Of a stretch of 50,262 nt of DNA, positions 2,370-18,165 are shown in pieces. Numbering within the stretch: position 1 is the first letter of the stretch; each line of letters begins with the position of its first letter. Source of the DNA: Lachnospiraceae bacterium (GTDB taxonomy: Bacteria; Bacillota; Clostridia; Lachnospirales; Lachnospiraceae); the NCBI GenBank assembly GCA_017624835.1, contig JAGAMG010000029.1, forward strand, positions 1-50,262, in the 5' to 3' direction. The notes under the pieces were generated by a model. That model did not search any database. It was not told the DNA's origin and worked only from the letters and a program-made list of their open reading frames with translations. Made by a program: the position numbers and the translations under genes.

Positions 2370-2537
2370 ATGGATAATATTCAAGACTTTTTAAACACTA
2401 TTGCCAGTGGGCAAGATACAAAACCAAGTGATGTTGTAGTTCCTACTTCAGCTCCTAATGACAATTCACAATATTTATCTCATGGTCAAAATACCTGGAA
2501 CTATGAATATCGTGGAGACAATTCCACGGACAAATAA
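2370..2537 (+). CDS. Small acidic hypothetical protein (55 aa)
   Basis: The start ATG 2370 is preceded by a near-perfect ribosome site, AGAAAGGAGG (2353-2362), and lies 15 nt after the stop of the membrane protein, so the two are very probably co-expressed. The product begins MDNIQDFLNTIASGQ and ends YRGDNSTDK. It is polar, with no transmembrane segment or cysteines and a Ser/Thr/Asn-rich middle. I recognise no family. The strong SD is the main evidence that it is real. Confidence 0.55.
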   Translation: MDNIQDFLNTIASGQDTKPSDVVVPTSAPNDNSQYLSHGQNTWNYEYRGDNSTDK

Positions 2538-2563
2538 TCAATTTTATATACTCTTTTTCAAAC

Positions 2564-2619
2564 GTCTTAATCGAGTCAAGAAACATCGCAAATTCGAATA
2601 TTCTTCGCTCGATTAAGAC
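2564..2619. other. Long stem-loop in the intergenic region
   Basis: GTCTTAATCGAG (2564-2575) pairs perfectly with CTCGATTAAGAC (2608-2619). Inside, after a symmetric 2-nt internal loop, AAGAA (2578-2582) pairs with TTCTT (2601-2605), leaving an 18-nt AT-rich loop. It may end the plus-strand small-gene transcript, separating it from the opposing membrane gene, but there is no U-tract on either side. The rest of 2538-2741 shows no gene. Confidence 0.45.
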
Positions 2620-2741
2620 TATAGCTATATAATATTCTTCCACAAGATATTCTTTAGAATATCAATTAATAGATAACTACAAATAATAAATCAAAGAGAG
2701 TTCCATTTTCATCCTTAAATGTCCGCTCCGACAATTGGATT

Positions 2742-3236
2742 TTATCCCGCAAATGTTATACCTTGTGATTCTAACCATTCTTTTATTTTCTTTATAAGTT
2801 CATAAAGTATGTATGCTATAACTGGAGCCAGCAAAAAGGCTTTTCCCATACACACATATATTCTATATGTGTAAAAAATCAACAAAAACCAACAACCTGC
2901 ATACAAACCAAAATCCGAATATGCATATATTATTTTATACCTACCCAAAATAGATATATGTTTTAAAAAAGTTCCCGATATTCCCACAACGATTAGAATA
3001 ATTCCAATAAAGAAAATAAATTCTTGATATGTATCCATCCAATTTGCAATCCTTTGACTATATTCTCCAATTATTGGTGGTTCTTTTATTTTTTCCTCTG
3101 TCATACCATAAAATAAATCTTTTGCCGAAAAAATAGCTAGAATATGGAATTCTATTATCCATACAATTTGCAAAATTACAAACAGATTCATTTTCTCCAA
3201 TACACTTTTAGTATAATCTTTCAAAAAATCACTCAT
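2742..3236 (-). CDS. Four-helix integral membrane protein of unknown function
   Basis: This 164-residue protein has four clear hydrophobic segments (about residues 17-36, 73-91, 105-126 and 132-149), a charged loop after the first, and a basic C-terminal tail (KKIKEWLESQGITFAG). I recognise no family. A good ribosome site (GGAGGATGAT before ATG 3236) supports expression. It points away from guaA and converges on the stem-loop at 2564-2619. Its AT-rich composition resembles the neighbouring R-M cluster and contrasts with guaA, which fits an acquired segment. Confidence 0.65.
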   Translation of the reverse strand: MSDFLKDYTKSVLEKMNLFVILQIVWIIEFHILAIFSAKDLFYGMTEEKIKEPPIIGEYSQRIANWMDTYQEFIFFIGIILIVVGISGTFLKHISILGRYKIIYAYSDFGLYAGCWFLLIFYTYRIYVCMGKAFLLAPVIAYILYELIKKIKEWLESQGITFAG

Positions 3237-3311
3237 ATCATCCTCCGTATATTTTTAAATTTCTATTCTATGTTAGTTTTATTGTCATTTGATTGTCACA
3301 CCCCAAAACAA

Positions 3312-3349
3312 GAGCCAAGAAACGCCGAAAATTCGGTATTTCTTGGCTC
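3312..3349 (-). terminator. Rho-independent terminator of guaA
   Basis: An 11-bp stem, GAGCCAAGAAA with TTTCTTGGCTC, holds an inner CCGAA/TTCGG helix. Read on the minus strand it is followed by TTGTTTTGGGG. It lies 8 bp after the guaA stop. Confidence 0.85.
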
Positions 3350-3356
3350 ATTTGTA

Positions 3357-4898
3357 TTATTCAAACTCTATCGTCGCCGGGGGTTTCCCTGTGCAATCAT
3401 ACAGCACTCTGTTAACCCCCTTAACCTCATTTACTATCCTGCTGGTTACCTTGCCAATCACTTCCCAAGGCAGCTCAGCAGCCTCCGCTGTCATAAAGTC
3501 AGAGGTAGTAACTGCTCGCAAAGCCACCGCATAGTCATAGGTTCTCTCGTCACCCATACAGCCTACGCTTCTCATATTGGTCAATGCGGCAAAATACTGT
3601 CCCAAGCCTTTGTCAACACCGGCTTTGGCGATTTCCTCCCGGTAAATGTAGTCTGCATCCTGAACGATACGGACTTTTTCGGCAGTTACTTCACCTACAA
3701 TGCGGACGCCCAGTCCCGGACCGGGGAAGGGCTGGCGGTATACCAGGTATTCCGGAATGCCAAGCTCTAATCCGGCTTTTCTTACTTCATCCTTAAAGAG
3801 GAGGCGTAAGGGTTCAATTATTTCCTTGAAATCTACGCAATCCGGTAAACCACCCACGTTATGGTGGGATTTGATGACTGCGGATTTACCCAAGCCACTT
3901 TCGATAACATCGGGATAAATGGTTCCCTGTACCAGATAGTCTACAGCACCGATTTTCCGGGCTTCTTCTTCAAATACACGGATAAATTCTTCGCCAATGA
4001 TTTTGCGTTTTTCTTCCGGCTCGGTAACTCCTGAAAGCTTGGAATAAAACCGCTCCTGAGCATTAACACGGACAAAATTCAAATCGTAAGAGCCGTTAGG
4101 ACCAAATACAGCCTCCACCTCATCACCTTCGTTTTTACGCAAAAGACCATGGTCGACAAATACGCAGGTCAGCTGTTTGCCTACGGCTTTTGCCAAAAGC
4201 ACTGCTGCCACGGAGGAATCCACACCACCGGACAATGCGCACAGTACCTTGCCATTCCCCACCTTTTCGCGGATAGCCTTGATACTGCTCTCCACAAAGG
4301 AATCCATCTTCCAATCTCCCTTGCAGCCGCAAACATTCAGCACAAAATTACTGAGCATCTTCATACCCTCCTGAGTATGCATTACCTCAGGATGAAATTG
4401 CACTGCATAGAGCTTGCGCTTGGGACATTCCATTGCTGCCACAGGACATACGGGAGTGTGTGCTGTAATGGTAAACTCAGCTGGGGCTTTTTCAATATAA
4501 TCTGTGTGACTCATCCAGCAAATGGTCTTATCAGTCACGCCATTAAAGAGAGCTGCGCCGGTGTCCACAGTTACTTCAGTCTTGCCGTATTCGCTGACAG
4601 GTGCCGTTGCAACGCTGCCTCCCAGCATATGCGCCATCAACTGGGAACCATAGCAAATACCCATAATAGGCACACCCAACTCAAATACTTCTTTGTCACA
4701 CAGGGGAGAATCCTCTCCGTACACACTGTTAGGCCCTCCGGTAAATATAATTCCCTTGGGATTTAACGCCTTCAGTGCTTCCATGCTCATATTATAGGGA
4801 TGTACTTCACAATAAACACTGCATTCTCTGACTCTTCTTGCAATCAATTGATTATACTGACCACCAAAATCCAGAACTACAATCATTTCTCTTTCCAT
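3357..4898 (-). CDS. guaA: GMP synthase (glutamine-hydrolysing)
   Basis: GuaA converts XMP to GMP using ATP and glutamine, the last step of guanine nucleotide synthesis, in the cytosol. The N-terminal class I amidotransferase has nucleophile Cys82 (GICYGSQLM) with His169 and Glu171 (AVQFHPEV). The ATP-pyrophosphatase loop LSGGVDSS is at about 222-229, and the C-terminal dimerisation domain ends [11 protein letters not shown] choose ATG 4898 (MEREMIVV, 513 aa, a normal family length) because GAGG at 4910-4913 lies 11 nt upstream; a longer frame adds about ten residues with no ribosome site. It is monocistronic, with its own consensus promoter and terminator. The 3' end of guaA is a known integration site for mobile islands, which is relevant to the AT-rich DNA beyond it. 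Confidence 0.98.
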
Positions 4899-4920
4899 AA
4901 ATATTGCAACCTCAATTCTG

Positions 4921-4938
4921 CCGCACACTTCTGTGCGG
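4921..4938 (-). other. Hairpin in the guaA leader
   Basis: CCGCACA and TGTGCGG pair around a 4-nt loop, 7 nt upstream of the guaA SD. A second weaker repeat (ATGTTCT...AGAACAT) lies further 5' in the roughly 100-nt leader. No U-tract follows, so this is not a terminator. It could modulate translation, but that is speculation. Confidence 0.4.
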
Positions 4939-5005
4939 TCTTATTCCTCTGCTACTCTGTATCAAATGTTCTACTGTTTTGAGAACATCTATTTTACATT
5001 TTTCC

Positions 5006-5034
5006 ATTATAATTACATGCTTTTCCGCTGTCAA
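5006..5034 (-). promoter_or_regulatory. Sigma-A promoter of guaA
   Basis: A perfect -35 TTGACA (5034-5029), a 17-bp spacer and a perfect -10 TATAAT (5011-5006) read toward guaA. The predicted start, near 4999, gives a leader of about 100 nt. No purine-riboswitch core is visible in it. Confidence 0.9.
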
Positions 5035-5062
5035 AAGAAATTTGTCGAAAGATTGTATTTTT

Positions 5063-5953
5063 TTATTTAGTGCCAATATCCTCCAATTTTCCAAAGCTAT
5101 AACCCATCTCTTCCCATTTGGTTAAAAGTTCATCCATGATTTCTCCATTGGTTTTGGAAGTACTGTGTAGCAAAACAATTGCTCCGGGATGGATTCTTTT
5201 ACACAATTTATCCAATGCTTCTTCATGACTGGGCTGTTTATCCACATTCCAATCCACGTAGGCAAGGCTCCAGAAAAAGGTGGAATAACCAAGTTCCTTT
5301 GCCATTTGCAGATTGTTAGTACTGTATTTTCCCTGGGGCGGACGGTAATACATGGATAGCTCTGTTCCTGTTACCTCTTGAAAAAGTGTCTTTACGTCGT
5401 CCATCTCCTTTTGGAAGGAAGTTTGGTCTGAAATTTTAGACATGTCAGGATGATGATATGTATGGTTTCCCACGGTATGACCGTCCTCTATCATGCGCTT
5501 CACCAATTCCGGGGCAGATTCCAGATAATGTCCTACCACAAAAAAAGTAGCCGGCGCATTATGCTTTTTTAAGGCATCCAGAATGGGCTCCGTATTGCCA
5601 TTCTCATATCCGCAATCAAAGGTCAGGTAAATAACCTTTTCTTTGGTATTGCCTACAAAATAAGCATTGTACTGCGCCAGCTCTGCTGCTGAAGCATTTC
5701 CTGTTGGCTGGGTGCCATCTGCCCCGAAACCAAGTCCCCAATTTTCGGAAGCAAGCATAAGCTCTTCCATGGTGGGACTCTCCATTGTGGTAGCACCTCC
5801 GAAAACCGCCCTGTTCTCGGATTCCGTTTCTGCAAAGGTTTCCATTGCCGTTTCTCCAATAGCCCGCCCCAGGAAGAAAAGGGCGAATAAGAAAAGGATG
5901 GCCGGAATCCAGGTTTTGGCGTGGGTTTGTATGAAGTCTTGTAAGTTTTTCAT
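5063..5953 (-). CDS. pdaA: PdaA-like polysaccharide deacetylase (CE4), membrane-anchored
   Basis: The product resembles the N-acetylmuramic acid deacetylases that prepare muramic-delta-lactam in spore cortex peptidoglycan. A basic N-terminus and one membrane segment (about 15-29) export it. The NodB domain (about 105-290) shows LTFDCGYENG with Asp113, metal His164 and His168 in GNHTYHHP, YRPPQGKYS, and a late HPGAIVLLHS block. The second Asp of the usual TFDD is Cys114; a non-Asp residue there is typical of PdaA-type enzymes. ATG 5953 (296 aa) is chosen because AAGGAG lies 11 nt upstream; the longer frame runs back into a large hairpin element. It stands alone, downstream of that element. A general wall deacetylase role cannot be excluded. 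Confidence 0.85.
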   Translation of the reverse strand: MKNLQDFIQTHAKTWIPAILFLFALFFLGRAIGETAMETFAETESENRAVFGGATTMESPTMEELMLASENWGLGFGADGTQPTGNASAAELAQYNAYFVGNTKEKVIYLTFDCGYENGNTEPILDALKKHNAPATFFVVGHYLESAPELVKRMIEDGHTVGNHTYHHPDMSKISDQTSFQKEMDDVKTLFQEVTGTELSMYYRPPQGKYSTNNLQMAKELGYSTFFWSLAYVDWNVDKQPSHEEALDKLCKRIHPGAIVLLHSTSKTNGEIMDELLTKWEEMGYSFGKLEDIGTK

Positions 5954-6003
5954 GTATTGTATGGCTCCTTGTTTTAGAAGGGGGGAAGGGGAAAGGTTGT
6001 GGA

Positions 6004-6157
6004 GGGTCAGGGGCATGGTATGTTCCACACGCGGCACGCTCTCGCTCCGCGAAAAACGTAGCGGTACTAAGCTCGTAGTCGAAATAAATTTCGCCTACAA
6101 GCTAAGGACCGACGTTTTTCAAGGGCCGCTTTGCGGAACATACCATGCCCCTGACCC
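6004..6157. repeat. 154-bp long inverted-repeat (hairpin) element
   Basis: Perfect 23-bp outer arms (6004-6026 and 6135-6157, starting GGGTCAGGGGCATGG) enclose further nested pairing: GCGGC/GCCGC, GAAAAACGT (6051-6059) with ACGTTTTTC (6112-6120), and a 16-bp arm AGCTCGTAGTCGAAAT with 14 of 16 positions paired, closing on a tiny TAA loop. The whole element can fold into one rod. It lies in the 317-bp gap between the GH27 gene and pdaA, ending about 34 nt before the pdaA SD. The rest of that gap (6158-6270) is AT-rich with no gene seen. It looks like a palindromic intergenic element; a cis-acting leader is the alternative. Confidence 0.75.
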
Positions 6158-6270
6158 AGCCAAGTGTATTCACCCTTACTCCCCTCTACATTAATCTTCC
6201 ATACAATATATGAAAAAATTCTTTATCTCATACATTGGTGGTGAGTATTGCACTGTACAATAATTCCTAA

Positions 6271-7779
6271 TTATAAAATCCCCTCTGTCTTTAACAGGTA
6301 TACCTTTTCATATCCCAGATACTCCAGGCTTTGTTTTGCCTGAGAGCTGCGTTTGCCGGTGGCGCAGTAGAGGACGAGGGGTTGGGATTTGTCCTTGAAG
6401 TAGTTGCCGGCGATTGCGTGCATGTCCATGTAAGGGACGTTCATTGCATCGGAAAGATGACTTTGGGCGTATTCTTGTTCTGTCCGTACATCTACCAAAA
6501 GTGCTCCTTCCTCTACTAACTGTTCCATGTGTGGCATATCTATCCATTCAATAGGTTTCCAGTGGTATTCGCCTTTGTCGTCTTTGTTGGGGATTTCGCG
6601 CCCCGTCTCGCTCTTTATCCTGTAAACAAGGGTTCCGTGGGGTTCTGCTTCCACAGAAATTGTTTTTTTACATTCACAGTCCGTATGTTCCCACAAATCT
6701 CTTATCTCTAAGATTTCTCCCAAGAGTCCTGCTTCCTCCAAGGAAAGCTCCATGCTTAACCGACACCCGCTACGGTTCAGGAATGCTACTGCCTTTTCCG
6801 TTCCCCCTTCTCCTAATTCCTTAAGCCAGATTTCTCCAAGCAATTCTCCATTTTCATTTCGGAATTCCTTGATAACGTATGCCTGTTTGCAGGCAGAATC
6901 CTGATTCAGGGCAATCAGTTCTTCATTTTTCAAAATCGCAAGGGTTTCCTCCTTGATTTTGGTTAAGTCACAGCCAATCATCAGGGGAGTTGACATCATA
7001 CACCACATGGCAAAATGGCTTTTTTCCTCTTCATGAGTCAGTCCGTTTCCTATCTGCATCATATCTAAATCGTTGACATGTCCCGGAGAACAGTATCTTG
7101 CCAAAGGCTTAATCATATCCAACTGGTGCACCACAGAGGAAAAAATAGGGCAAATATCCGCTCCGGTTCGCCATGAATCAGCCACCTTGGCAGCCCAGGA
7201 GCCGGGAAACTGCCAGCGACAAATATTGTACACAATCTCCCGACCGGTATCTAAGCGAATCCGGTCAATAATTTTTCCAATCTTGGTATACTGCTCCTCG
7301 TCATTTAAGCCCAGACGGACGCCACCGCACCAATCCACCTTGATAAAATCAAAGCCATTCTCCACCAGATACATGCGCAAATCCTGCTCCTCGTGTCCGA
7401 ATAATCCCACATTTTTTCCATTATTTCCCTCATGGTCGTAATAGTGACCACAGGTATTATCTCCCGCTTCCGAATAGATTCCTGCTTTTAAGCCCAGTTC
7501 ATGGGCATAATCTGCCACAGGCTTAATACCATTGGGAAATCTTTCTTTATGAAAGTGTAAAACTCCCTGCTCGTCACGACCACCGAAAAATCCATCATCC
7601 ATATTCAAATAAGTATAACCGCATTCTGCCAGCCCGGTATCCACCAAAGCTCTTGCCTGCTCCTTCAACCGTTCCTCGGAAATATCCGTGTGGAAGCAAT
7701 TCCATGAAGCCCATCCCATAATAGGGGTTTTGCGGATAAGTCCCTTTGATGATAATTCTTGCTTCAATTCCTGATTCAT
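6271..7779 (-). CDS. GH27 alpha-galactosidase-type glycosidase fused to a C-terminal rhodanese domain (copy 1)
   Basis: This 502-residue cytosolic enzyme has no signal peptide. The GH27 barrel starts at TPIMGWASWNCF (18-29). It has nucleophile Asp149 in FIKVDWCGG, acid/base Asp208 in DSWRTGADI, and PGHVNDLDMMQIGN (232-245). A beta-sandwich follows to about 390. Residues about 405-502 are a single rhodanese domain: EGALLVDVRTEQEYAQSHL, then the active loop Cys472-Ala-Thr-Gly-Lys-Arg477 in LYCATGKRSSQAKQ, which matches catalytically competent CxxGxR loops. GH27 members act on alpha-galactosides, N-acetylgalactosaminides or beta-L-arabinopyranosides; the substrate here is not shown. The start is ATG 7779 with GGAGG 8 nt upstream. 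It is last in the operon after GH78. A paralogue with the same fusion is at 16551-18056. Confidence 0.9.
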   Translation of the reverse strand: MNQELKQELSSKGLIRKTPIMGWASWNCFHTDISEERLKEQARALVDTGLAECGYTYLNMDDGFFGGRDEQGVLHFHKERFPNGIKPVADYAHELGLKAGIYSEAGDNTCGHYYDHEGNNGKNVGLFGHEEQDLRMYLVENGFDFIKVDWCGGVRLGLNDEEQYTKIGKIIDRIRLDTGREIVYNICRWQFPGSWAAKVADSWRTGADICPIFSSVVHQLDMIKPLARYCSPGHVNDLDMMQIGNGLTHEEEKSHFAMWCMMSTPLMIGCDLTKIKEETLAILKNEELIALNQDSACKQAYVIKEFRNENGELLGEIWLKELGEGGTEKAVAFLNRSGCRLSMELSLEEAGLLGEILEIRDLWEHTDCECKKTISVEAEPHGTLVYRIKSETGREIPNKDDKGEYHWKPIEWIDMPHMEQLVEEGALLVDVRTEQEYAQSHLSDAMNVPYMDMHAIAGNYFKDKSQPLVLYCATGKRSSQAKQSLEYLGYEKVYLLKTEGIL

Positions 7780-7810
7780 TACTACATCCTCCATTAAGAT
7801 ATATTTTATC

Positions 7811-7830
7811 AAATGACATCATTGTCATTT
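7811..7830. other. Perfect hairpin between the GH78 and GH27 genes
   Basis: AAATGACA and TGTCATTT pair across TCAT, beginning at the GH78 stop codon. It could be an RNA-processing or stability stem between the cistrons, or an operator. No U-tract follows. Confidence 0.45.
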
Positions 7831-10625
7831 TATATGATAGCAGCTATTTTTTTACCTAGCATCTCTATAAATGCTTCCTCATAACTCAAATTCCTCAAAG
7901 TTTCCCTCAAAGGATAATCTCCTGTATATGACATTAAATTATCCACCTGCGGAAGTTCTCTGCGAAGTAGCGCTTTTACCTCTGCATCCGCCATCAGTTT
8001 TCGCAGCTTATCATTGATACTCATGGACTCCGCAATGGGTTTCTTTGTTTTATAAGTAATCCCATAGCTTCCAGCTGAAACAATACAATGGTTCTCTTCC
8101 ACATGGGCAAACAGAGGATTCTGTTTCTCCACCGCGCACACAGCATTCACGTCACATAAGGGCAACTCCACCTTAGCACTACAACCGCTTGGCACTACAA
8201 TTTTCAAGGAAATATGGTGTAAATCCAATGCTTCCCAAGATATCTTATAGGTTCCTGCCGGAGAAGGATATTCTGCATCTACCTTCTTAATCTTCCAATT
8301 TACATGGGGTGCAATCCTTACCCGTCTAAAGCCAGGCTCCTCTTCCGAACATCGTAAACCTACTACATCCTTCCAAATCCATCCCACTATTGCCCCATAG
8401 GCATAATGGTTTAAACTGTTCATACCAGTGGAAGAAATATGTCCTGTTTCATCCAGCGAATTCCAACGCTCCCAAATCGTAGTAGCCCCTAAGTTTACTT
8501 CATAAAGCCACCCCGGATATTCCTCATTCAAAAGAATCTGAAAAGCTTCCTTTTCCATGCCGGCTTTAATTAGACCTTCACATAAAAGCGGCGTGCCCAC
8601 AAATCCTGTAGATAATTTGTTTTCATTATTCTCAAGCAAAGTTTTTAAAGTATTCTTTGCCCTTTCCCTATCATGTAGCTGCTCCTGTAAAGTCAAAAGG
8701 GCTGCCGTCTGGGTATGAATACAACAACGTCCGTTAGGAGAAAAATATTCCTCCACAATACCTTGTAAAATCTGCTCTGCAAGAGCTTCATACCTTTCTG
8801 CCTCTTGGTTTTTTCCTAAAATGCGAGCAGTTTTTGCAGTAATCAATGCACTTTTCCGGTAAAAAACATCTGCTATAAATCCCTCATCTGTACCACCTCT
8901 GGTTTGTGCAGAACCCCTATAAGGAGAATCCAAAGCCAGCCAATCTCCGTAATGGAATACTTCACGCCAACCATGATTGTTACCATCCACTCCGGCAATA
9001 TAAGCAAGCCATGCTGTCATACTTTCATAATGTTCCTCCAAAATGGTCTTGTCCCCATAATATAAATACAAATTCCATGGAATAATACAGGTAACATCTC
9101 CCCAAACGGAACTTCCCTTCTTACAAAGAAAAGCGGGAATCACATCCGGTACCATACCATTAAATTTTTTCTGCTCCTGAGCACAATCATACAAATATTT
9201 TTGATAAAAGGTATAGGTATCCGCCAAATAACAGGCCGTTTCACTAAACACCTGAGTATCTCCCGTCCAGCCCATGCGTTCATCCCTCTGGGGACAATCC
9301 GTAGGGTTTCCCACGAAATTACTCTTCATGCCCCATAGGGTATTGGAAATAAGCTGATTTACCTTTTCGTGTCCTGTGATAACCTTTCCCTTCATTGCCA
9401 CACCTGAATAAATAGCAAAAGCTTTAAAATCCTCCGGCTTAAAATCCGTGATTCCCTCTATCTTCACATAACGGTAGCCATAAAAAGTAAATATAGGACG
9501 TAACACATGTTCTTTACCATCCGATGTGTAAACATATTCTGCCTTGGCAGTTCTCAAATTATCCCGATAGAAATTGCTGTCCTGTAATACCTCGCCAAAC
9601 TGCAAATGCACTTTCGTTCCTACAGGCTCCTTTACCCGGAGAGTAAACATACCTGCCATATTCTGACCTACATCCAGCACCAGCTCCCCCTTAGGAGTAT
9701 GTAATACCTTTACAGGAAATCTCTCCTGCTCCAAAACAGGAATGCTTAAGCGATCCTGCACTAGGGGTGACGTATCAATACAAATCTGTGCCTGCTCCAA
9801 GGATAACGGAATTAATGTATCGTCTCTTTGCTCCCCATCATATATGCCTGAGAAAATCAGATTGCTTCTGGACACCATCCAACTTTCATCAGTACCTACC
9901 ACCTGCTCGCTGCCATCCGTATACCAAATATGGATTTCTGCAAGCAGCTTCCAGGAATCTCCATAAATAGCCGCCTTGCTACTTTCAAAATCAAATCTTC
10001 CCTTATACCAGCCATCTCCCAATATAACAGAAACCTGATTCTCTTCCAGGAGCTGTCTTGTAATATCATAGGTCTGTGCCTGAAGCCATCTGTCATAGGC
10101 ATTACAGCCCGGGGTAAGATATTCGTTGCCAACTTTCTTTTCATTAAGATAAGCCTCATATAAACCCAGACCACAAATATAAAGTCGTGCTCTTTCCACT
10201 TGTTTTCCCTTTACAAGGGAAAATGTTTTTCCAAAAACAGGCAGTCTGGGCTCATCCCCTTCACAGGTAATCCATTTTGCCTGCCAAGATTCATCCCGTT
10301 TTCCTGTCTCAAAGGTTTGAAAAGCACTTTCCAGCCTTTCCCCTGTTTGCGCTCTCACCTGCACCTGCCAGATATAAATGCATCGTGGCTGTAGTTCTAT
10401 ATTTACTACCTCCCCTAAGGAATCTAAAACATCCCATCCTGTATCGGCTATTAAATAGGGATACCTCCCGGAAAATCCTCCACTTGCTGTGATTTGTCCC
10501 CGATAAATAATAATTCTGGCTTCTTTTACTTCCACGCCCTCCACAATCCAGGAAAATACAGGCTTAGAAATCCAATAGCCCAAAGGGTTTTCTAAATGAT
10601 TTACTTTGCAGTTTGTGATTTTCAT
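7830..10625 (-). CDS. GH78 alpha-L-rhamnosidase
   Basis: This 931-residue glycosidase has no signal peptide, so it should release terminal alpha-L-rhamnose from imported oligosaccharides in the cytosol. The N-terminal beta-sandwiches begin MKITNCKVNHLENPLGYW. The concanavalin-like domain has LDVGQNMAGMF near 320. The (alpha/alpha)6 catalytic barrel carries CPQRDERMGWTGDTQ, with the conserved Asp448, Glu449 and Asp456, and the late IWERWNSLDETGH block. A C-terminal beta-sandwich follows. The last 70 or so residues (after KKPIAESM) form an extra helical extension (LRKLMADAEVKALLRREL) like those I associate with some other Firmicutes glycosidases. The start has AAAGGG upstream. It sits 12 nt from the AraC regulator's stop and upstream of a GH27 gene. 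Confidence 0.92.
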   Translation of the reverse strand: MKITNCKVNHLENPLGYWISKPVFSWIVEGVEVKEARIIIYRGQITASGGFSGRYPYLIADTGWDVLDSLGEVVNIELQPRCIYIWQVQVRAQTGERLESAFQTFETGKRDESWQAKWITCEGDEPRLPVFGKTFSLVKGKQVERARLYICGLGLYEAYLNEKKVGNEYLTPGCNAYDRWLQAQTYDITRQLLEENQVSVILGDGWYKGRFDFESSKAAIYGDSWKLLAEIHIWYTDGSEQVVGTDESWMVSRSNLIFSGIYDGEQRDDTLIPLSLEQAQICIDTSPLVQDRLSIPVLEQERFPVKVLHTPKGELVLDVGQNMAGMFTLRVKEPVGTKVHLQFGEVLQDSNFYRDNLRTAKAEYVYTSDGKEHVLRPIFTFYGYRYVKIEGITDFKPEDFKAFAIYSGVAMKGKVITGHEKVNQLISNTLWGMKSNFVGNPTDCPQRDERMGWTGDTQVFSETACYLADTYTFYQKYLYDCAQEQKKFNGMVPDVIPAFLCKKGSSVWGDVTCIIPWNLYLYYGDKTILEEHYESMTAWLAYIAGVDGNNHGWREVFHYGDWLALDSPYRGSAQTRGGTDEGFIADVFYRKSALITAKTARILGKNQEAERYEALAEQILQGIVEEYFSPNGRCCIHTQTAALLTLQEQLHDRERAKNTLKTLLENNENKLSTGFVGTPLLCEGLIKAGMEKEAFQILLNEEYPGWLYEVNLGATTIWERWNSLDETGHISSTGMNSLNHYAYGAIVGWIWKDVVGLRCSEEEPGFRRVRIAPHVNWKIKKVDAEYPSPAGTYKISWEALDLHHISLKIVVPSGCSAKVELPLCDVNAVCAVEKQNPLFAHVEENHCIVSAGSYGITYKTKKPIAESMSINDKLRKLMADAEVKALLRRELPQVDNLMSYTGDYPLRETLRNLSYEEAFIEMLGKKIAAII

Positions 10626-10637
10626 ACTTTATACCCT

Positions 10638-12911
10638 TTACTCCTTCTCGCCATCTCCACTTCCAATCACTACATTATAATCTCTGAATCTGGACGGCGT
10701 CACACCATAGTATTTTTTGAATGCAGTGGTAAAATATGTACTATTATTATAACCTACGGCTTCTGCAATTTGCGCAATATCTTTATCCGGCTCTGATAAT
10801 AGCAAGTTCTTTGCCTTTTCCATTCTTACCTTCAAAATATACTCCAAAGTTTTACATCCGGTAAATTCTGTAAACTGCTTGCCAAAATAAGCTGCACTAA
10901 TATTTAATTTATCTGCCAGCATATTTACATTTAAATTACAATCATCATAATTATTTCTAATATAATCCACTGCCTCTTCAATCATATTTGCAGTAGAATG
11001 ATTACTTACTTTACTAATTTCAATAGCTGCTTCGTCATATAACGATTCCAGCCACAACATAATTTCTTCTCTTCCGGTTAAGGCTGCAATACGTTCCTTT
11101 AAATCTATTTCAGATTTTCTTCTATTTTCTACATTCTTGCTTATTTTTCCGGTCTTTTGTATCGCTTCTGCAATATCCTCCAATCTACTTATAAATTTTC
11201 TATAAGGCATTTTCTCACATTTTTCCAGAATTGCTTCCAATGCCTGCATATATTCTTTCTTTTCCCTCCGCTTCAAACTATCAATCATTTGCATCAAAAG
11301 ACTTTCTGTGTCTGTCTCTTCTTCATTCTCCAAAATTATTGTTTCCTGACATCCCAGCAAGTGCCTGGTTTTTAAAGAATCATTCATCCTTCCAAACCAT
11401 GAAACACATTGTTCTCCACCATCTGTCATTCGGGGTGTCAAGAGACTGAAAAGTTTTACATTTGATAATTTACACACCGTTTCTTCAGCTTCTTTAGTTG
11501 CTTCCAGCATTACGGAATTTACCAATTTCTCATTTGCCGTTGATACCACAAACAACATTCTTCGCAATCCAACCTCAAAATAAGTGCATTTCCCATACTC
11601 AGCCAACACAGATGTATAAATATTACTCACCATATTTCTCAGCATATCATATTCCTGCATACTGAAATTTCTGGACAAATCCCGATTCTCAACCAATACA
11701 AGAATCATATAATATGGGGAATCCGCAGAAATAATTTTTTTATTCTGCAGCAATAGCTGTGTTTCCGTTTTCTGGTTTCCCAACAGTAAATTTTTTACGA
11801 TAAAATCTTTTTCTTTCTTTTCATTTAATACTTCAATATGGGAAGATACTCCATGATAAAAATGCTCTAAAAATAACACATCATCCGCTTCCGGTTCCAA
11901 CTTCTGGGCTATCTGGGATTGTTTTAAACGGATCATTATTTGGGTAAACGGATCAAATATTTTTCTTGATACCAAAAGCATTAACATTACAATTACTACT
12001 GCTGCCCCGATAATTACAGCAAAAATAATATAAAATATATAATTAATATTTACAATCTGAGTTACATAATCTGATTGTGCAACAATATGAAATCCTCTTT
12101 CTTCGGTGGGAAATGCTATATACTCCCATAATTTTCCATTCTCTCTCATTTCAAATTGTTCTTCATTTGCCAATACCTGTTGCACCCATTCTTTCCCTGA
12201 CCAATCCTCTCCCAAATACTCCAAATTACTGTTTCCCACCACGATTCCTTCATCGTTGATGATATAAATCCTAAATTGTTCCTCCTGCGCATCTGCAAAT
12301 AATGTCTTATTCAAACCAACCAAATCAATATTCATTACTACCATACCATTAAAATCTGCACTTCCTATAGAAGCCTCTGCCATTGGAATTGATAATAAGG
12401 AAATCATTTCTTTCTCTGATTTTCTATTCTTTACTTTCCATACAATGGGATGATTTCTACCGTTTTCTTCCAGCATTTTGCTTACGAGAATTTTTTCCAG
12501 ATTCTCAGGAGTTGCAACCCCGGTTCCTATATCTAATGCCATATTTCTTTGACTATTAATAAAGCAAACAGATTGCAAATAGGAAGTACTGCTTAATATA
12601 CTCCGAGTTTTATTCAAAAAAGCCATGTGATTTGTAAAATCATTATTCTCTCCCAAGCGCAAGCTCACTCCATCCGGTGATGCATACCACTCCATAAGCA
12701 GATCCTTCGCATTATCAATACTACTACTGAATACCACATCTGTATTCCCCATGGTTGTCTTTGTCAAATCATAGTATCCTCTAACCATTTCTGCCCGAAA
12801 CCATATGGTCAATATCACTGCCACAAGCACCAAAACCAGCAAAGATATGGAAAACATCCCAAATAAAGTTTTAGAATACAACGTTCTTGTCCTTTTTTTA
12901 AACCAACTCAT
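10638..12911 (-). CDS. Membrane-spanning AraC-family regulator (YtdP-like)
   Basis: This is a one-component transmembrane sensor, 757 aa from ATG 12911. TM1 is at about 17-38. An extracytoplasmic sensor domain of about 250 residues follows, with the DIGTGVATPEN and IYIINDEGIVVGN stretches typical of Cache-like ligand pockets. TM2 is at about 288-311. A long cytoplasmic linker leads to the AraC double helix-turn-helix at about 640-745 (NMLADKLNISAAYFGKQF, then YFTTAFKKYYGVTPSRFRD). It lies between the transporter genes and GH78, the usual place for regulators of LplABC/YtcQP-type sugar loci, and probably activates them when the extracellular sugar, possibly with the binding protein, is sensed. 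The ribosome site is weak (GGGG 10 nt upstream), so the exact start is less certain. Confidence 0.88.
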   Translation of the reverse strand: MSWFKKRTRTLYSKTLFGMFSISLLVLVLVAVILTIWFRAEMVRGYYDLTKTTMGNTDVVFSSSIDNAKDLLMEWYASPDGVSLRLGENNDFTNHMAFLNKTRSILSSTSYLQSVCFINSQRNMALDIGTGVATPENLEKILVSKMLEENGRNHPIVWKVKNRKSEKEMISLLSIPMAEASIGSADFNGMVVMNIDLVGLNKTLFADAQEEQFRIYIINDEGIVVGNSNLEYLGEDWSGKEWVQQVLANEEQFEMRENGKLWEYIAFPTEERGFHIVAQSDYVTQIVNINYIFYIIFAVIIGAAVVIVMLMLLVSRKIFDPFTQIMIRLKQSQIAQKLEPEADDVLFLEHFYHGVSSHIEVLNEKKEKDFIVKNLLLGNQKTETQLLLQNKKIISADSPYYMILVLVENRDLSRNFSMQEYDMLRNMVSNIYTSVLAEYGKCTYFEVGLRRMLFVVSTANEKLVNSVMLEATKEAEETVCKLSNVKLFSLLTPRMTDGGEQCVSWFGRMNDSLKTRHLLGCQETIILENEEETDTESLLMQMIDSLKRREKKEYMQALEAILEKCEKMPYRKFISRLEDIAEAIQKTGKISKNVENRRKSEIDLKERIAALTGREEIMLWLESLYDEAAIEISKVSNHSTANMIEEAVDYIRNNYDDCNLNVNMLADKLNISAAYFGKQFTEFTGCKTLEYILKVRMEKAKNLLLSEPDKDIAQIAEAVGYNNSTYFTTAFKKYYGVTPSRFRDYNVVIGSGDGEKE

Positions 12912-12932
12912 GATAATAACCCCATAACAATT

Positions 12933-12970
12933 GCCAAAAGACGTCCACACATATGCGGACGCCCAATGGC
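12933..12970 (-). terminator. Weak stem-loop after the substrate-binding protein gene
   Basis: GCCATTGGGCGTCC imperfectly pairs with GGACGTCTTTTGGC (minus strand), 12 nt after the solute-binding-protein stop. The T-run is inside the stem. It may reduce read-through from the abundant binding protein into the regulator, a common arrangement, but it is not a classic terminator. Confidence 0.4.
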
Positions 12971-12981
12971 TCTATTAATCT

Positions 12982-14511
12982 CTATTTATTCTGCTGTGCG
13001 TAAAATTCTGAAAACTGTTTCTGATATTCTGCGATATATTTTTCCAGACCGGCAGCCTTCATTTCTGCAATCACACTGTCAATATTTTCTTCATAATCCA
13101 AAAAACCAAGCATCATAGGATGCAGTTTCTCGTCGTAAATAGAAGTCAGCATCGCTACCTCTGTGGATACAGGCTCTGTATTAAAGGAAAAACCGGTAAG
13201 CTTAGAAAATACGGAATCATTATCCCAATTTTCATACTTTTCTATGGTTTCCTGGGAAAGTGATACATCATATACATTATAAGGAATCGCTTCCATAAAC
13301 CAACTGTCAATAAATGTGTCCGAAACTAATTTCTTAATACTTCCATCTTCATTTATTTCATAATCCTTACCTTCTACTCCATATACACAGAAATTAAAAT
13401 GCTCTTGATCCTTGTACATCCAATTAAACAAATCAAGCCAACGCGCAACATTTTCTTGATCTGCTGCTGAAATAGCAATACCCCAATCATAATCTTTATT
13501 CTTAATCTTTAACTGCTTACCAATACCCACCATTGTTTCATAAGCATCCGGATTTGCTGTTTTTAGTGAATTAGAAATCAATGAACCGGGCATACCATTT
13601 CTGGCAAGACAGTTTGCAGCACTCCAATCAGCTTCACTTTGGGATGGATTGGTAATAAGGTCTTTATTTATGTAACCCAATTCTACCCAACGGCTAGTAA
13701 TTTCACATAAATTCTTAAATTCCTCAGACTCAAAATAGCTGTAAACAGTGTCTCCCTCTTCCGCTTCATTTACATATACAAAATCATTACCCTCATTCAA
13801 AGATCTGGTTCCTTCTCCACAATATGACCACAACGCATAAGGAAGAAAATCAAGATTCATTACAGTTCTCTGATTTGGATATTTCTCCTTATGTTCTGCA
13901 AACACTTTTTCAAGTTCTTCTAAGGTATCAACCTCCTCCGGTGTATACCCCAACTCATCCAGAATGTCACCTCTTACGTCAAAATACTGCATAGAACCTG
14001 CATATGGTTTGTTTCCAAAGGGAATTGCATACAGCTTACCATTGTACTTTGCACACTCGAATCCGTTATTTTCTCCTCTTGTAGCAATCAAGTCCGGAAG
14101 ATGCTCTTCTAATAAGGATTCATCAATTTCTGCCAGATATCCCTTGGTATGCCAATCATAATTTGATACAATATACCATACTGCAAATTTCTCTCCAGAC
14201 GCCAGCATTGTAGACACATTCGTATCAGACCCCCACGGTAAATATTCCACAGACAAGTCAATATTCAAGTCTTCAAGTACAGCATCATGAAACTCGTTTT
14301 TAAAAAATTCTTCTCTACGGGATGACATGTCTCCATACATAATTAATCTCAGTTCAACCTGATCCTGTTCGGTAGTCTTGCCACTTTCAGCAGTTTTCTC
14401 CTGCACATCAGATGCAACTGCCCCACTGTCCTCTTTCTGCGCACCACAGCCTGCCAACACAGATGTAGCCATTACAAGACTCAGTGCTAGGGTTAAAAAT
14501 TTCTTTTTCAT
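12982..14511 (-). CDS. ABC transporter sugar-binding lipoprotein (family 1 solute-binding protein)
   Basis: This is the extracellular ligand receptor of the adjacent two-permease importer. The 509-residue precursor has a lipoprotein signal, MKKKFLTLALSLVMATSVLA, followed by lipobox Cys22 (LAGC), then an acidic linker and a large two-lobe domain typical of the LplA/YtcQ group (about 500 aa, longer than maltose-binding proteins). Start ATG 14511 is fixed by AGAGAGG a few bases upstream and by the signal peptide; a longer frame would bury the signal. Neighbouring rhamnosidase and GH27 enzymes suggest rhamnose- and galactose- or arabinose-containing oligosaccharides, for example from plant or bacterial polysaccharides, as ligands (inference). 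Confidence 0.92.
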   Translation of the reverse strand: MKKKFLTLALSLVMATSVLAGCGAQKEDSGAVASDVQEKTAESGKTTEQDQVELRLIMYGDMSSRREEFFKNEFHDAVLEDLNIDLSVEYLPWGSDTNVSTMLASGEKFAVWYIVSNYDWHTKGYLAEIDESLLEEHLPDLIATRGENNGFECAKYNGKLYAIPFGNKPYAGSMQYFDVRGDILDELGYTPEEVDTLEELEKVFAEHKEKYPNQRTVMNLDFLPYALWSYCGEGTRSLNEGNDFVYVNEAEEGDTVYSYFESEEFKNLCEITSRWVELGYINKDLITNPSQSEADWSAANCLARNGMPGSLISNSLKTANPDAYETMVGIGKQLKIKNKDYDWGIAISAADQENVARWLDLFNWMYKDQEHFNFCVYGVEGKDYEINEDGSIKKLVSDTFIDSWFMEAIPYNVYDVSLSQETIEKYENWDNDSVFSKLTGFSFNTEPVSTEVAMLTSIYDEKLHPMMLGFLDYEENIDSVIAEMKAAGLEKYIAEYQKQFSEFYAQQNK

Positions 14512-14590
14512 TTTTTCCTCTCTTTCCGTGGCTTTTTCAACCACTTTCATTTTACTATATCCAACTGACTTACATCAATAGGAATCCACT

Positions 14591-15472
14591 TTATCCCTTT
14601 ACAGCTCCCACAGTAATTCCCTTTACAAAATATTTTTGTGCCAGGGGATAAAACAATAATACCGGTAATACCGTAAACACAGTCATTGCCATTCTCGCTG
14701 TATTAGAAGGCAATACAATATGTTCTTTTGCCGATTGTAATGTTGAATTTGTAAGCAAAGCAGAAATATTTGCCATCATATTGTATAAAAGCTTCTGTAA
14801 TGTGTATAAATCTGTTTTTGTAATTAAATATAATGACAGATAGAAATCATTCCAAAACTGCAATGCCATAAATAAGATGACACTGACCAATCCCACCTTT
14901 GCCAATGGCAGAGATATGGAAAAGAATATTTTTGCATCAGATGCTCCATCTATTTTTGCAGCCTCGATCAGTTCCTCGGGAATAGACTTAAAGTTACTTT
15001 TTAACACAAACATATAAAAGACATTCATGCCATAAGGAAATACCAATGCCCAAATATTATTTTGTAAGCCATAATATTTAGTGCATAGTATATACCATGG
15101 AAGCAAACCTCCACTAAATATCATGGTAAACCAGGCGAAAAAGGATAATGCATTTGCAAATCGGAAATTTTCTTTTTTCTGTGCAACTGCATATGCAAAT
15201 AATGCCATAACTGATACAGAAAAAAAGGTTCCCAGAATAACACTCATGAATGACATTCCATATGCACGAAGCAACATAGCTCCCTTGTTTTCCAAGATAA
15301 ATTTATAAGTTTCCAAAGTAGCATCTCTGGGTAACAATGAAAATCCTTCATTAATAATTGCTGTTTCATCCGAAATAGATGCTACAAAAGCAATCCAAAG
15401 TGGCAAAAAACAACTAAATGCCATGATTCCCACAATTACATAACAAATTATACTTTCTTTTTGTTTTCTCAT
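14591..15472 (-). CDS. Carbohydrate ABC transporter permease (LplC/YtcP type)
   Basis: This 293-residue inner-membrane permease has six predicted helices, the first at about 10-31. The EAA loop EELIEAAKIDGASDAKIFF is the docking site for the ATPase, and the end PLAQKYFVKGITVGAVKG is typical of the MalG-like family. ATG 15472 is preferred: the SD AGAGGAG lies 9-10 nt upstream, whereas the in-frame TTG nine bases earlier overlaps the SD. It pairs with the upstream permease 19 nt away. The locus encodes no ATPase, so a shared MsmX/UgpC-type ATPase elsewhere must energise it. Confidence 0.92.
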   Translation of the reverse strand: MRKQKESIICYVIVGIMAFSCFLPLWIAFVASISDETAIINEGFSLLPRDATLETYKFILENKGAMLLRAYGMSFMSVILGTFFSVSVMALFAYAVAQKKENFRFANALSFFAWFTMIFSGGLLPWYILCTKYYGLQNNIWALVFPYGMNVFYMFVLKSNFKSIPEELIEAAKIDGASDAKIFFSISLPLAKVGLVSVILFMALQFWNDFYLSLYLITKTDLYTLQKLLYNMMANISALLTNSTLQSAKEHIVLPSNTARMAMTVFTVLPVLLFYPLAQKYFVKGITVGAVKG

Positions 15473-15491
15473 AATTCCCAAGCTCCTCTTA

Positions 15492-16412
15492 TTAAAATAG
15501 TGAATAATCCGGGTCTATTTTCTTTGCCAGCAAATTAGAACCTAATACCAATACAAAACCAAAAATAGATTGATACAATGTAATTGCTGATGCCGATTCA
15601 AACTGTCCATTCACAATCGCAGAACGATATACAAAAGTCGCAATGGTATCCGTGGTTTCCAACAAAAATGGATTAAGGCTTGTCATGCCCATTATCTGGT
15701 CAACACCACCTGCCAAGATTCCTCCTATATTCAGCAAGAACATAATTACTATAGTAGGTTTCAGCAATGGTAATGTTATCTGCCATATCCTCTGCCATCT
15801 TCCTGCGCCGTCTATTTCAGCCGCCTCGTAAAGACTTTGGTCAAATCCTGTCAATGCACAAAAATAAATAATGGAACCATAACCTGCATTCTTCCATATA
15901 GTCGTTATTATCATAATTGGCCACCAATAATCCGGATTGGAATACCATTCCAAAGGTGTCCCTCCAAGAGCAGTAATTACCGAATTAACCATTCCTGCCT
16001 TTTCATCAAAAAGAGCAAGTGCTACCATACCAACTACAATCCATGAAATAAAATAGGGAAATAACATGACAGATTGTGTTACTTTTCGATATTTGCTAAG
16101 ATTAATTTCATTTAACATAATGGCCAGACCTACGTTAACAATTACTCCCACCCCAATACTAAACCCATTGATTACCAGCGTATTTCTGGTAGCTCTGAGT
16201 GCATTATCCAAATTCAAAAAGAAAAACTTAAAATTCTGAAGTCCTACAAACTCACTTCCAAATAGCCCTCCCTGATAGGTATAACGTTCAAATACCACAT
16301 AGAGCCCTGCCATGGGTAAATAAGAAAATAGAATTAAGCACAAAATTCCGGGAATAGAAATTAAATAAAAAAACCACTTTTTTCTTATCTCTTCTAATAA
16401 ACTCATTTTCAC
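15492..16412 (-). CDS. Carbohydrate ABC transporter permease (LplB type)
   Basis: This 306-residue permease has six membrane segments, the first ending LILFSYLPMAGLYVVFERY. The EAA motif YEAAEIDGAGRWQRIWQITLP faces the cytosol, and the C-terminus is PDYSLF. The family is the MalF/LplB side of two-permease sugar importers. I keep the GTG start at 16412 because AAGGAGG sits 8 nt before it; the ATG two codons later would be spaced 14 nt. It is the first gene of the transporter unit: a promoter-like sequence and a strong terminator of the preceding GH27 gene lie just upstream. Confidence 0.92.
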   Translation of the reverse strand: MKMSLLEEIRKKWFFYLISIPGILCLILFSYLPMAGLYVVFERYTYQGGLFGSEFVGLQNFKFFFLNLDNALRATRNTLVINGFSIGVGVIVNVGLAIMLNEINLSKYRKVTQSVMLFPYFISWIVVGMVALALFDEKAGMVNSVITALGGTPLEWYSNPDYWWPIMIITTIWKNAGYGSIIYFCALTGFDQSLYEAAEIDGAGRWQRIWQITLPLLKPTIVIMFLLNIGGILAGGVDQIMGMTSLNPFLLETTDTIATFVYRSAIVNGQFESASAITLYQSIFGFVLVLGSNLLAKKIDPDYSLF

Positions 16413-16442
16413 TTCGCTTACCTCCTTGATTTGCTTGCCCCA

Positions 16443-16471
16443 AGATTAACACCCAATTTTGTGCTTCTCAA
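16443..16471 (-). promoter_or_regulatory. Predicted promoter of the transporter unit
   Basis: TTGAGA (16471-16466), a 17-bp spacer and TAATCT (16448-16443) lie between the GH27 terminator and the first permease. Moderate match to sigma-A, well placed. Confidence 0.5.
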
Positions 16472-16473
16472 CC

Positions 16474-16524
16474 AAAAAAAATTGAAAAACCTTAAATTTT
16501 TTTGCTATTTTTAAGGTTTTCCAA
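16474..16524 (-). terminator. Terminator of the upstream GH27-rhodanese gene
   Basis: On the minus strand an AT-rich stem, TTGGAAAACCTTAAA with TTTAAGGTTTTTCAA, is followed directly by a run of eight T. It separates this GH27 gene from the transporter genes. The convergent reading also has a T-run, but no plus-strand gene precedes it. Confidence 0.85.
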
Positions 16525-16550
16525 TTTTTTAAGTATTATTTTTTTAATTT

Positions 16551-18056
16551 TTATACTTCGTCATTACCAATCACTTCAACCTTCCAATCATACACATTCT
16601 TATATCCCAGATAGGTAAGACTCTGTTTAGCTTGTCCACATCTTTTTCCTGTTTTACAATATACAATAATCGTTTGCTCCTTATCCGGAAGATAAACCCT
16701 TGCATTCACATGAATCCCCGTATAGGAAAGATTGATTGCCTGTGGTAAATGCGCCTCTTCATATTCTTGCGGCTCCCTTACATCTATTAATAAAGCTCCT
16801 TCCTTTAATAATCCCCTAACTTCTTCGTCTGTCAAGGTATTTTTCTCCTGTATATTCTTCAGCCAATTATTTTCCACCTCATAGAGGTTTCGTTCTATGC
16901 CACAAGCACTTGCTTCCACTACATAAATGACCACTCCATGCGGTGGAACAGTCACTTGAAATTCTTGAGCCAATTTTATCTCTTGATGACTCCACACATC
17001 CCGAACCGAAATAATATCCCCCGCTAATCCCAATTCCTCTATAGAAGCTCTAATCACTAAAGTTTCTTCACCTCTATTCAGAAATGCCACTGCTTTTTTC
17101 CTGGAATGTTGCATTCCTAAATTTTTTAACCAAATCTCTCCTATTAATTCTTCCTTTCCGTTAAACACTTGTTTCGTCAAAAAAGCCTGCTGACATGCCT
17201 CATCTTGATTAATGGAAATCATTTCCTTGTTTTTTAATATTTCCAATGCCTTTTCCGATATGGTTGTCAAATTGCACCCAATGATTAATGGTGAAGACAT
17301 CATACACCACATAGAGAAATGTGTCTTTTCCTCCTCTTCACTTAATCCATTTCCTATCTGCATCATATCCAAATCATTTACATGCCCCGGACCACAGTAA
17401 TACGCCAAGGATTTAACATTATCAATTTGATGTAAAATTGAAGAAAATTGTGGCTGAATGTCTCCTCCGGTTCTCCAAGAATCTGCTACCTCAGCCACCC
17501 ACTCTCCCGGAAATTGCCACCTACACACATTGTAGACAATTATTCTCCCTGTTTCTTCCCTTATTTGGTCAATAATATTTCCAATTTTTGTATACTGTTC
17601 TCTTTCATCTAATCCTAAGCGCAGACCTCCACACCAATCCACCTTTATATAATCAAATTCAAACTCCTCAAGATACATCCGTATATCTTGTTCTTCATAT
17701 CCATATAGTCCGACGTTTTTCCCGTTTGCTCCCTCCTTCTCCAAAAAGCCGCAAGTATTATCCCCACCCTCTGCATAAATTCCCGCTTTCAAACCAAGAG
17801 AATGGACATAATCAGCAAGCACTTTTATCCCATTGGGAAACCTTTCCCTATGGATTAATATACGACCATTATCCCCGCGTCCCCCAAAAAAGCCGTCGTC
17901 TATGTTAAAATAATTATAGCCGCATTCTGCAAGCCCTGTTGTAACTAATGCAGCCGCTTGTTCTTTCAATATTTTTTCATTAATATTCGTACCAAAACAA
18001 TTCCATGATGCCCAGCCCATAATTGGTGTTTTTTTTCTCAAATAATTATTTTTCAT
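16551..18056 (-). CDS. GH27 alpha-galactosidase-type glycosidase fused to a C-terminal rhodanese domain (copy 2)
   Basis: This 501-residue paralogue of the 6271-7779 enzyme has the same layout. The barrel begins TPIMGWASWNCFGT; nucleophile Asp140 is in YIKVDWCGG and acid/base Asp199 in DSWRTGGDI. PGHVNDLDMMQIGN and a beta-sandwich follow. The rhodanese domain is at about 405-495: EGALLIDVREPQEYEEAHLP, then Cys467-Lys-Thr-Gly-Lys-Arg472 in VYCKTGKRCGQAKQSLTYLG. No signal peptide. The GH27 parts are close paralogues, while the rhodanese halves and linkers differ more yet keep both active sites. ATG 18056 has GAGAGG 8-9 nt upstream. It has its own terminator and sits upstream of the transporter. 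The coding DNA is more AT-rich than copy 1, so the pair is not a recent tandem duplication. Confidence 0.9.
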   Translation of the reverse strand: MKNNYLRKKTPIMGWASWNCFGTNINEKILKEQAAALVTTGLAECGYNYFNIDDGFFGGRGDNGRILIHRERFPNGIKVLADYVHSLGLKAGIYAEGGDNTCGFLEKEGANGKNVGLYGYEEQDIRMYLEEFEFDYIKVDWCGGLRLGLDEREQYTKIGNIIDQIREETGRIIVYNVCRWQFPGEWVAEVADSWRTGGDIQPQFSSILHQIDNVKSLAYYCGPGHVNDLDMMQIGNGLSEEEEKTHFSMWCMMSSPLIIGCNLTTISEKALEILKNKEMISINQDEACQQAFLTKQVFNGKEELIGEIWLKNLGMQHSRKKAVAFLNRGEETLVIRASIEELGLAGDIISVRDVWSHQEIKLAQEFQVTVPPHGVVIYVVEASACGIERNLYEVENNWLKNIQEKNTLTDEEVRGLLKEGALLIDVREPQEYEEAHLPQAINLSYTGIHVNARVYLPDKEQTIIVYCKTGKRCGQAKQSLTYLGYKNVYDWKVEVIGNDEV

Positions 18057-18165
18057 TTATATAGCCTCTCTTTAAAATGTTTTTCTTTCACTTTAAAGGA
18101 GAATATTTCAATTAGCAATTTCACTTTTTAGTATTTTCTTCAAAAATTAGATATTATAAATATTT

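Follow-up and report, generated by a model that had tools for sequence, protein, structure and literature searches.

What does a rhodanese, a sulfur-transferring domain, do on an enzyme that cleaves glycosides? The question is raised by a 50,262-nucleotide stretch of DNA from a Lachnospiraceae bacterium (GenBank assembly GCA_017624835.1, contig JAGAMG010000029.1; hereafter, the window), in which two genes each join a glycoside hydrolase family 27 (GH27) enzyme to a rhodanese domain. An initial annotation had pointed out the two fusions with intact active sites and their position on either side of a transporter/rhamnosidase locus. Both open reading frames (ORFs) were present with their Pfam domains and catalytic residues, and genes for an ATP-binding cassette (ABC) importer, an AraC-type regulator, and a GH78 enzyme lay between them. 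The architecture recurs in other genomes with intact motifs and under purifying selection, and sequence comparison indicates that a single clade of GH27 enzymes from gut Clostridia stably carries the fusion. We tentatively favor, at somewhat less than an even chance, the reading that the rhodanese is a tethered and probably active sulfurtransferase module, which sits beside a GH27 exo-glycosidase and acts independently of it rather than in glycoside cleavage.

Both window copies have the domain order GH27, Melibiase_C, and rhodanese (Table 1), and all Melibiase_2, Melibiase_C, and Rhodanese calls exceeded the curated Pfam cut-offs. Melibiase_2 scored 140.7 and 158.2 bits (cut-off, 23), and Rhodanese PF00581 scored 60.6 and 63.2 bits (cut-off, 22.2), with E-values of 2.2e-16 for copy 1 and 3.3e-17 for copy 2. 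Copy 1 probably starts at ATG 7779, which has GGAGG upstream, and not at TTG 7812; with this start, the rhodanese Cys is Cys472 of copy 1 and Cys467 of copy 2, in agreement with the numbering in the initial annotation. Alignment of copy 1 with rice α-galactosidase (1uas), and then of copy 1 with copy 2, located Asp140 and Asp199 (copy 2 numbering) in both copies; we take their equivalents in the rice enzyme to be the nucleophile and the acid/base, respectively. The six-residue rhodanese loop C-x-x-G-x-R is found in both copies, as CATGKR in copy 1 and CKTGKR in copy 2.

The two copies are 58% identical over the full protein. Their rhodanese parts have diverged further (protein p-distance, 0.506) than their GH27 parts (0.372). 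The difference in GC content between the copies (45.6% and 38.4%) suggests separate histories, and in the GH27 tree the copies were not sisters (no starred support). Since no signal peptide was visible by inspection in either copy, the window fusions are probably cytosolic. The gap between the GH27-side domains and the rhodanese is ~30 residues in this short form, and an AlphaFold2 model of copy 2 (pLDDT 88.5, pTM 0.88) gives a hint of a defined packing of the two domains. These two rhodaneses are the only ones detected in the host genome (2/2 matches; genome 84.8% complete).

The search for the two-domain architecture in other genomes, which the initial annotation had suggested, was performed on genome contigs and gave 80 loci: 39 further short GH27–rhodanese fusions (L035–L070, L072, L074, and L089), nine secreted forms, two loci cut by a contig end (L071 and L075), and 30 GH27-only loci, including L078, which runs off its contig. 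Short-form loci were detected via GH27 peptide patterns, and their rhodanese was recognized by profile or motif. The fusion genes of L052 and L056 contain one in-frame stop each, due to either sequencing error or a real lesion, and L038 and L089 do not differ in their GH27 and rhodanese stretches. Among the 39 intact short-form proteins (set A2; two from the window and 37 from the loci), Melibiase_2 and Rhodanese were found in all and Melibiase_C in 38. An artefact of sequencing or assembly, raised initially as a possible source of the fusion, was rejected, as was chance, because the same architecture occurs in many other, independent assemblies.

In 391 genomes sampled evenly across the class, with up to three candidates scored per genome, there were 47 GH27 matches at 1e-40 among the matches listed. 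Twelve of the 13 matches with at least 60% identity extended through the rhodanese (12 genes from 11 genomes, including the two of the window); one of the 12, in G587, has an in-frame TGA, and the 13th (G765, 73% identity) stops 114 bases from a contig end. A fused protein in G496 (L130) is only 40% identical, a contig end truncates the match in G469:C246, and the remaining 32 matches end at query residue 409 or earlier. At the level of the family (397 genomes, including the window's own), 43 genomes had a match at 1e-20; apart from the window genes, none of the matches listed passed query residue 400, and the best of these was 48% identical over residues 4–387. A sample of 20 other genomes of the genus gave no GH27 match that continued into a rhodanese; in two of them (G778 and G793), the rhodanese part was matched by a small frame of its own. 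Across the phylum (398 genomes), a profile built from 48 rhodaneses of glycosidases (A3) with E-values up to 1e-19 matched only the window's two genes as glycosidases, under a strict limit that could hide weaker GH3-type matches and with two frames of 569 and 579 amino acids left unopened; an 849-amino-acid frame in G991 proved to be an oxidoreductase–rhodanese–TusA–DsrE protein.

Two unfused members, L073 and L076, lie inside the 43-row fused GH27 clade (support, 100) with an intact GH27 and no rhodanese in their loci. Their placement within the clade (support, 94 and 88, unstarred) suggests that they lost the rhodanese, although the inner branches are unstarred.

Rhodaneses also occur on secreted glycosidases. 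The secreted GH27 form (~1030–1085 amino acids; n = 9; L079 and L081–L088) contains Melibiase_2, Melibiase_C, Rhodanese, and NPCBM in 9/9 proteins, with the NPCBM C-terminal to the rhodanese and the rhodanese ~300 residues from the glycosidase domains; the window copies have neither this spacing nor a C-terminal NPCBM. Its loop is CSAAKR in 9/9, with Ala in place of the loop Gly. Searching the 391 class genomes with A3 gave frames near 2000 amino acids, 14 of which were examined (L145–L158). In 11 of them (L145, L146, L147, L148, L149, L150, L152, L153, L155, L156, and L158), both GH3 domains, an Fn3-like domain, and the rhodanese exceeded the cut-offs and the N-termini were signal-like. The others were partial frames, L151 with a GH3_C match below the cut-off, and L154 and L157 with CBM6 and rhodanese only. 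The rhodanese of the GH3 form lies ~1000 residues from the glycosidase domains, and its match reached the C-terminus or stopped one residue short in 14/14. L147, the single GH3 member that was compared with NCBIfam, scored best against the beta-xylosidase Xyl3A, far below the cut-off.

The fused short forms retain both sets of catalytic residues. The GH27 residues D140 and D199 and the rhodanese residues D425, R427, C467, G470, and R472 were invariant in 39/39 aligned short fusions. Homologs with a routinely mutated rhodanese Cys, which the initial annotation had named as evidence to the contrary, were sought, and none of 66 rhodaneses (52 GH27-linked and 14 GH3-type) lacked the loop Cys or Arg: both were kept in 42/42 short GH27 (the 39 of A2, L122, and segments of L052 and L056), 9/9 secreted GH27, 1/1 divergent GH27 (L130), and 14/14 GH3-type proteins, the latter two having been found by a rhodanese profile with which decayed domains could be missed. 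The ratio of nonsynonymous to synonymous substitution rates (dN/dS) had a median of 0.133 for GH27 and 0.138 for the rhodanese in 44 close pairs, which were non-independent and had to fall within dS limits for both halves, with single-pair ranges of 0.066–0.331 and 0.033–0.694, respectively. Both halves are under similar purifying selection, and these medians of ~0.13, together with the invariant Asp, Arg, and Cys, agree with the selection for the combination that the initial annotation had proposed to examine by dN/dS on each half. GH27 and rhodanese distances were correlated (r = 0.906; 780 non-independent pairs of 40 proteins), as expected for any fusion inherited as a unit. Nine conserved GH27 columns separated 40 fused short forms from 12 unfused ones; eight of these columns, all except column 305, were common to the unfused L073 and L076, and are therefore better markers of the clade than of the fusion. 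On sequence grounds, the GH27 parts seem to form an ordinary clade of the family.

In a rhodanese tree of 93 rows and 94 columns, the 42 short GH27 forms fell in one group (98/88) and the nine secreted GH27 forms in another (97/88), and these together with L130 (52 GH27-linked rhodaneses) formed one group (96/90). The 14 GH3-type rhodaneses were in a separate group (100/97), and a topology uniting short and secreted GH27 forms without L130 was not rejected (approximately unbiased test, p-AU 0.309). The tree indicates two rhodanese lineages on glycosidases, one on GH27 and another on GH3; its deep branches are uncertain because the columns are few and the non-glycosidase rhodaneses were chosen mostly by similarity to A3. 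Three further secreted-looking proteins with a terminal rhodanese (L159, L160, and L161), two of which (L159 and L160) have a weak propeller match below the cut-off, grouped with the GH3-type rhodaneses (95/80). In L164 (1804–2604), an SLH domain is followed by a rhodanese, and this protein is possibly wall-bound. L166 contains a GH3_C ORF (52–1410), a separate ORF (1480–4254) with Fn3-like and Big_2 domains and the rhodanese loop CYGGTR, and a 1064-amino-acid secreted-looking protein (4404–7598) that is pectate lyase-like by eye.

Comparison with known proteins placed each half near a familiar enzyme. The GH27 half resembles 1uas (phmmer E-value, 9.9e-71) in its catalytic barrel, C-terminal β-sandwich, and nucleophile and acid/base Asp, and an Asp–Asp pair of 1uas, presumably forming the galactose pocket in GH27 α-galactosidases, aligned with the window copies. 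However, the best stretches of GH27 structure chains end at residue 405 or earlier, whereas the window copies add a rhodanese after the sandwich. The rhodanese half resembles the single-domain rhodaneses PspE and GlpE in consisting of one domain with a C-x-x-G-x-R-type loop, but differs in being attached to a glycosidase, and its scores of 40.6 and 46.6 bits against the NCBIfam PspE cut-off of 102 place it outside the PspE/GlpE equivalog. NF045521 (rhoda_near_glyco), compared by its name and description line only, is likewise a rhodanese domain whose label suggests a link to glyco genes; the window copies scored 47.1 and 46.8 bits against its cut-off of 145 and are not members. A phosphatase or arsenate-reductase reading of the domain was rejected because the loop is C-x4-R, the sulfurtransferase spacing, and not C-x5-R, the phosphatase spacing.

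Rhodaneses are already known as extra modules on sulfur and redox enzymes. Examples are fusions with a beta-lactamase (3tp9) and an NADH oxidase (6pfz) and the oxidoreductase–rhodanese–TusA–DsrE protein L190, whose partners we assign to sulfur or redox metabolism; the window fusions differ in that a glycosidase is the partner. No published description of a glycosidase–rhodanese fusion was found in narrow-term full-text searches that covered titles and abstract openings outside preprints. If borne out, the conserved pairing in two glycosidase families, with its active site preserved, would point to an unrecognized link of sulfur chemistry with plant-fiber breakdown in anaerobic guts, and it can be tested with a single protein of ~500 residues.

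We also compared the neighboring genes of the fusions. When 681 ORFs of the window and 56 other loci were clustered, no neighbor family proved common to many loci beyond generic ABC ATPases: the widest cluster besides GH27 held 19 proteins from 14 sources, with two scanned members being ABC-transporter ATPases, the next was present in eight loci (its members in L038, L066, and L067 are MatE proteins), and all others were present in six or fewer. Near neighbors of the short-form loci (108 proteins of at least 150 amino acids, up to two genes on each side) were scanned separately, leaving out L060, L061, L062, and L072, in which the fusion ORF was missed, and L071, L074, and L089, owing to a residue limit. 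MatE was found in 7/108, an AraC-type helix-turn-helix in 7/108, and a GH78 barrel in 4/108. No sulfur-metabolism family was among the 25 commonest of 149 families, with one exception at the level of single loci: in L048, a homocysteine-methyltransferase/B12 (methionine-synthase-like) protein adjoins the fusion.

In the reading that we tentatively favor, the GH27 half would be an exo-glycosidase, most likely α-galactosidase-like, and the rhodanese half a single-domain, PspE-related putative sulfurtransferase behind a short variable linker, such that two activities with separate active sites would stand side by side. The gene run suggests that imported rhamnose/galactose oligosaccharides could be trimmed by the GH78 enzyme and the GH27 halves. 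The rhodanese Cys would take sulfane sulfur from a donor, e.g., thiosulfate or a persulfide, and, as the six-residue C-x-x-G-x-R loop suggests, hand it on to either a small acceptor or protein thiols. The rhodanese is likely a working sulfurtransferase because of this loop and the solved relatives of the A3 profile, which include 6mxv, 1yt8, and PspE 2jtq, and it is likely an independent module because no neighbor family is widely common, the domain gap varies from ~30 to ~300 and ~1000 residues, and unfused members exist. It may have a general sulfur role, which is kept in view by the finding that 3/11 fused genomes (G728, G575, and G496) have no further rhodanese match, as is also the case for the window's genome; the other eight have further rhodaneses, that of G746 lying in a GH3-type frame with GH3_C in a separate ORF. 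Several points weigh against this reading. We infer the cell location, donor, and acceptor of the fused rhodanese and, from sequence, its sulfurtransferase activity; no donor, acceptor, or partner gene for the rhodanese was found in the loci; CSAAKR in place of C-x-x-G-x-R may change the chemistry of the secreted GH27 form; the unfused L073 and L076 make the module dispensable; and the pTM of 0.88, in hinting at defined packing, would allow crosstalk between the domains.

Such crosstalk is the basis of an alternative that we consider possible but unlikely, in which gut sulfide or polysulfide persulfidates or oxidizes the rhodanese Cys and, by way of the domain packing, raises or lowers the activity of the glycosidase. 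The invariant Cys fits a redox or persulfide switch of this kind, and the modeled interface of the short form keeps a regulatory role in consideration. The rhodanese is, however, distant in sequence from the catalytic domain in the secreted GH27 and GH3 forms, L073 and L076 do without it, and no highly conserved Cys column was present in the fused short forms but absent from these two. Its terminal position in all 14 GH3-type proteins, and the SLH–rhodanese (L164) and propeller-like–rhodanese (L159–L161) proteins of the same class, would instead suit a module for docking or retention, in which the rhodanese fold binds a partner or the cell surface and the motif is kept for structure. This we regard as rather improbable: docking alone leaves the invariant nucleophilic Cys and Arg unexplained, inspection revealed no signal peptide in the window copies, and no partner gene recurs.

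The hosts raise the matter of cyanide, since herbivore-gut glycosidases may act on plant glycosides and a rhodanese could convert released or ambient hydrogen cyanide (HCN) to thiocyanate. Record titles name Lapin, read as rabbit, for 15/39 short-form loci and ruminants for 6/39, and ruminants for 7/9 secreted forms; the other 18/39 short-form titles name neither, and the proportion from herbivores may be due to sampling. We know of no cyanogenic glycoside that is opened by GH27, the GH3 protein L147 scored best, if far below the cut-off, against a beta-xylosidase, and HCN diffuses freely, which makes a fusion unnecessary; we find this explanation quite improbable. It is just as doubtful that the glycosidase–rhodanese class of gut Clostridia as a whole (short GH27, secreted GH27–NPCBM, and secreted GH3) detoxifies cyanide or reactive sulfur during plant glycan breakdown. 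If it did, its members would be candidates for the cyanide-detoxifying microbes of herbivore guts; the microbes behind rumen cyanide detoxification remain unknown, and the portion of the article consulted makes no mention of glycosidase–rhodanese fusions (PMC10425440). The initial annotation had also considered a thio-, sulfate-, or glucosinolate-type substrate, and this proposal found no support. Only the co-occurrence of both domains speaks for thio-linked or sulfur-bearing glycosides such as glucosinolates whose sulfur by-product the rhodanese would handle. The GH27 active-site residues are ordinary, the 25 commonest neighbor families include no recurring sulfur gene, the rhodanese is ~300 or ~1000 residues away in the secreted forms, and a rhodanese transfers sulfane sulfur and does not cleave thioglycosides, all of which renders such a substrate very improbable.

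Table 1. Features of the window around the two GH27–rhodanese genes
Feature	Position	Strand	Basis or remark
Copy 1 GH27–rhodanese fusion	6271..7779	-	502 amino acids from ATG 7779; ORF reaches TTG 7812
Copy 1 Melibiase_2 (GH27) catalytic domain	6898..7728	-	Pfam PF16499, E 7.5e-41
Copy 1 Melibiase_C beta-sandwich	6616..6834	-	Pfam PF17801, E 6.5e-13
Copy 1 rhodanese domain, loop C-A-T-G-K-R-S	6289..6525	-	Pfam PF00581
Copy 2 GH27–rhodanese fusion	16551..18056	-	501 amino acids
Copy 2 Melibiase_2 (GH27) catalytic domain, Asp140 and Asp199	17202..18029	-	PF16499, E 3.6e-46
Copy 2 Melibiase_C beta-sandwich	16920..17138	-	PF17801, E 3.5e-12
Copy 2 rhodanese domain, loop C467-K-T-G-K-R-C	16590..16826	-	Profile match
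GH78 alpha-L-rhamnosidase	7830..10625	-	Pfam
AraC-type regulator, 770 amino acids	10638..12950	-	Pfam
Putative ABC importer substrate-binding protein, DUF3502	12982..14550	-	Pfam
ABC importer permease	14591..15481	-	Pfam
ABC importer permease	15492..16412	-	Pfam
Interval between polysaccharide deacetylase and S8 peptidase genes	6038..18165	.	Congener comparison

Seven minus-strand genes separated by gaps of ~10–140 bases form a run with the two fusions at its ends. By coordinate, the order is GH27–rhodanese, GH78, AraC-type regulator, DUF3502 protein, two ABC permeases, and GH27–rhodanese; copy 2 is thus the first gene and copy 1 the last. A related GH78 directly adjoins the fusion in L046, L047, and L049. 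In the window, the genes for the deacetylase and the S8 peptidase that flank the run are 12.1 kb apart. According to match coordinates in the 20 congeners, their homologs are on the same strand and <500 bases apart in six (G778, G782, G783, G785, G786, and G793), 1.4 to 15.7 kb apart on the same contig in five, close but on opposite strands in G781, and on different contigs in eight. Because the flanking homologs are adjacent in 6/20 congeners, the simplest reading is that the seven-gene run is likely an acquired operon or island.

Two proteins of the window extend beyond their domain models. The GH78 protein continues for ~100 residues past the last Pfam match, which ends at residue 825 of 931. 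At 22499–24118, a ClpX-like protein of 539 amino acids was compared with a 418-position model, and the match starts at residue 65.

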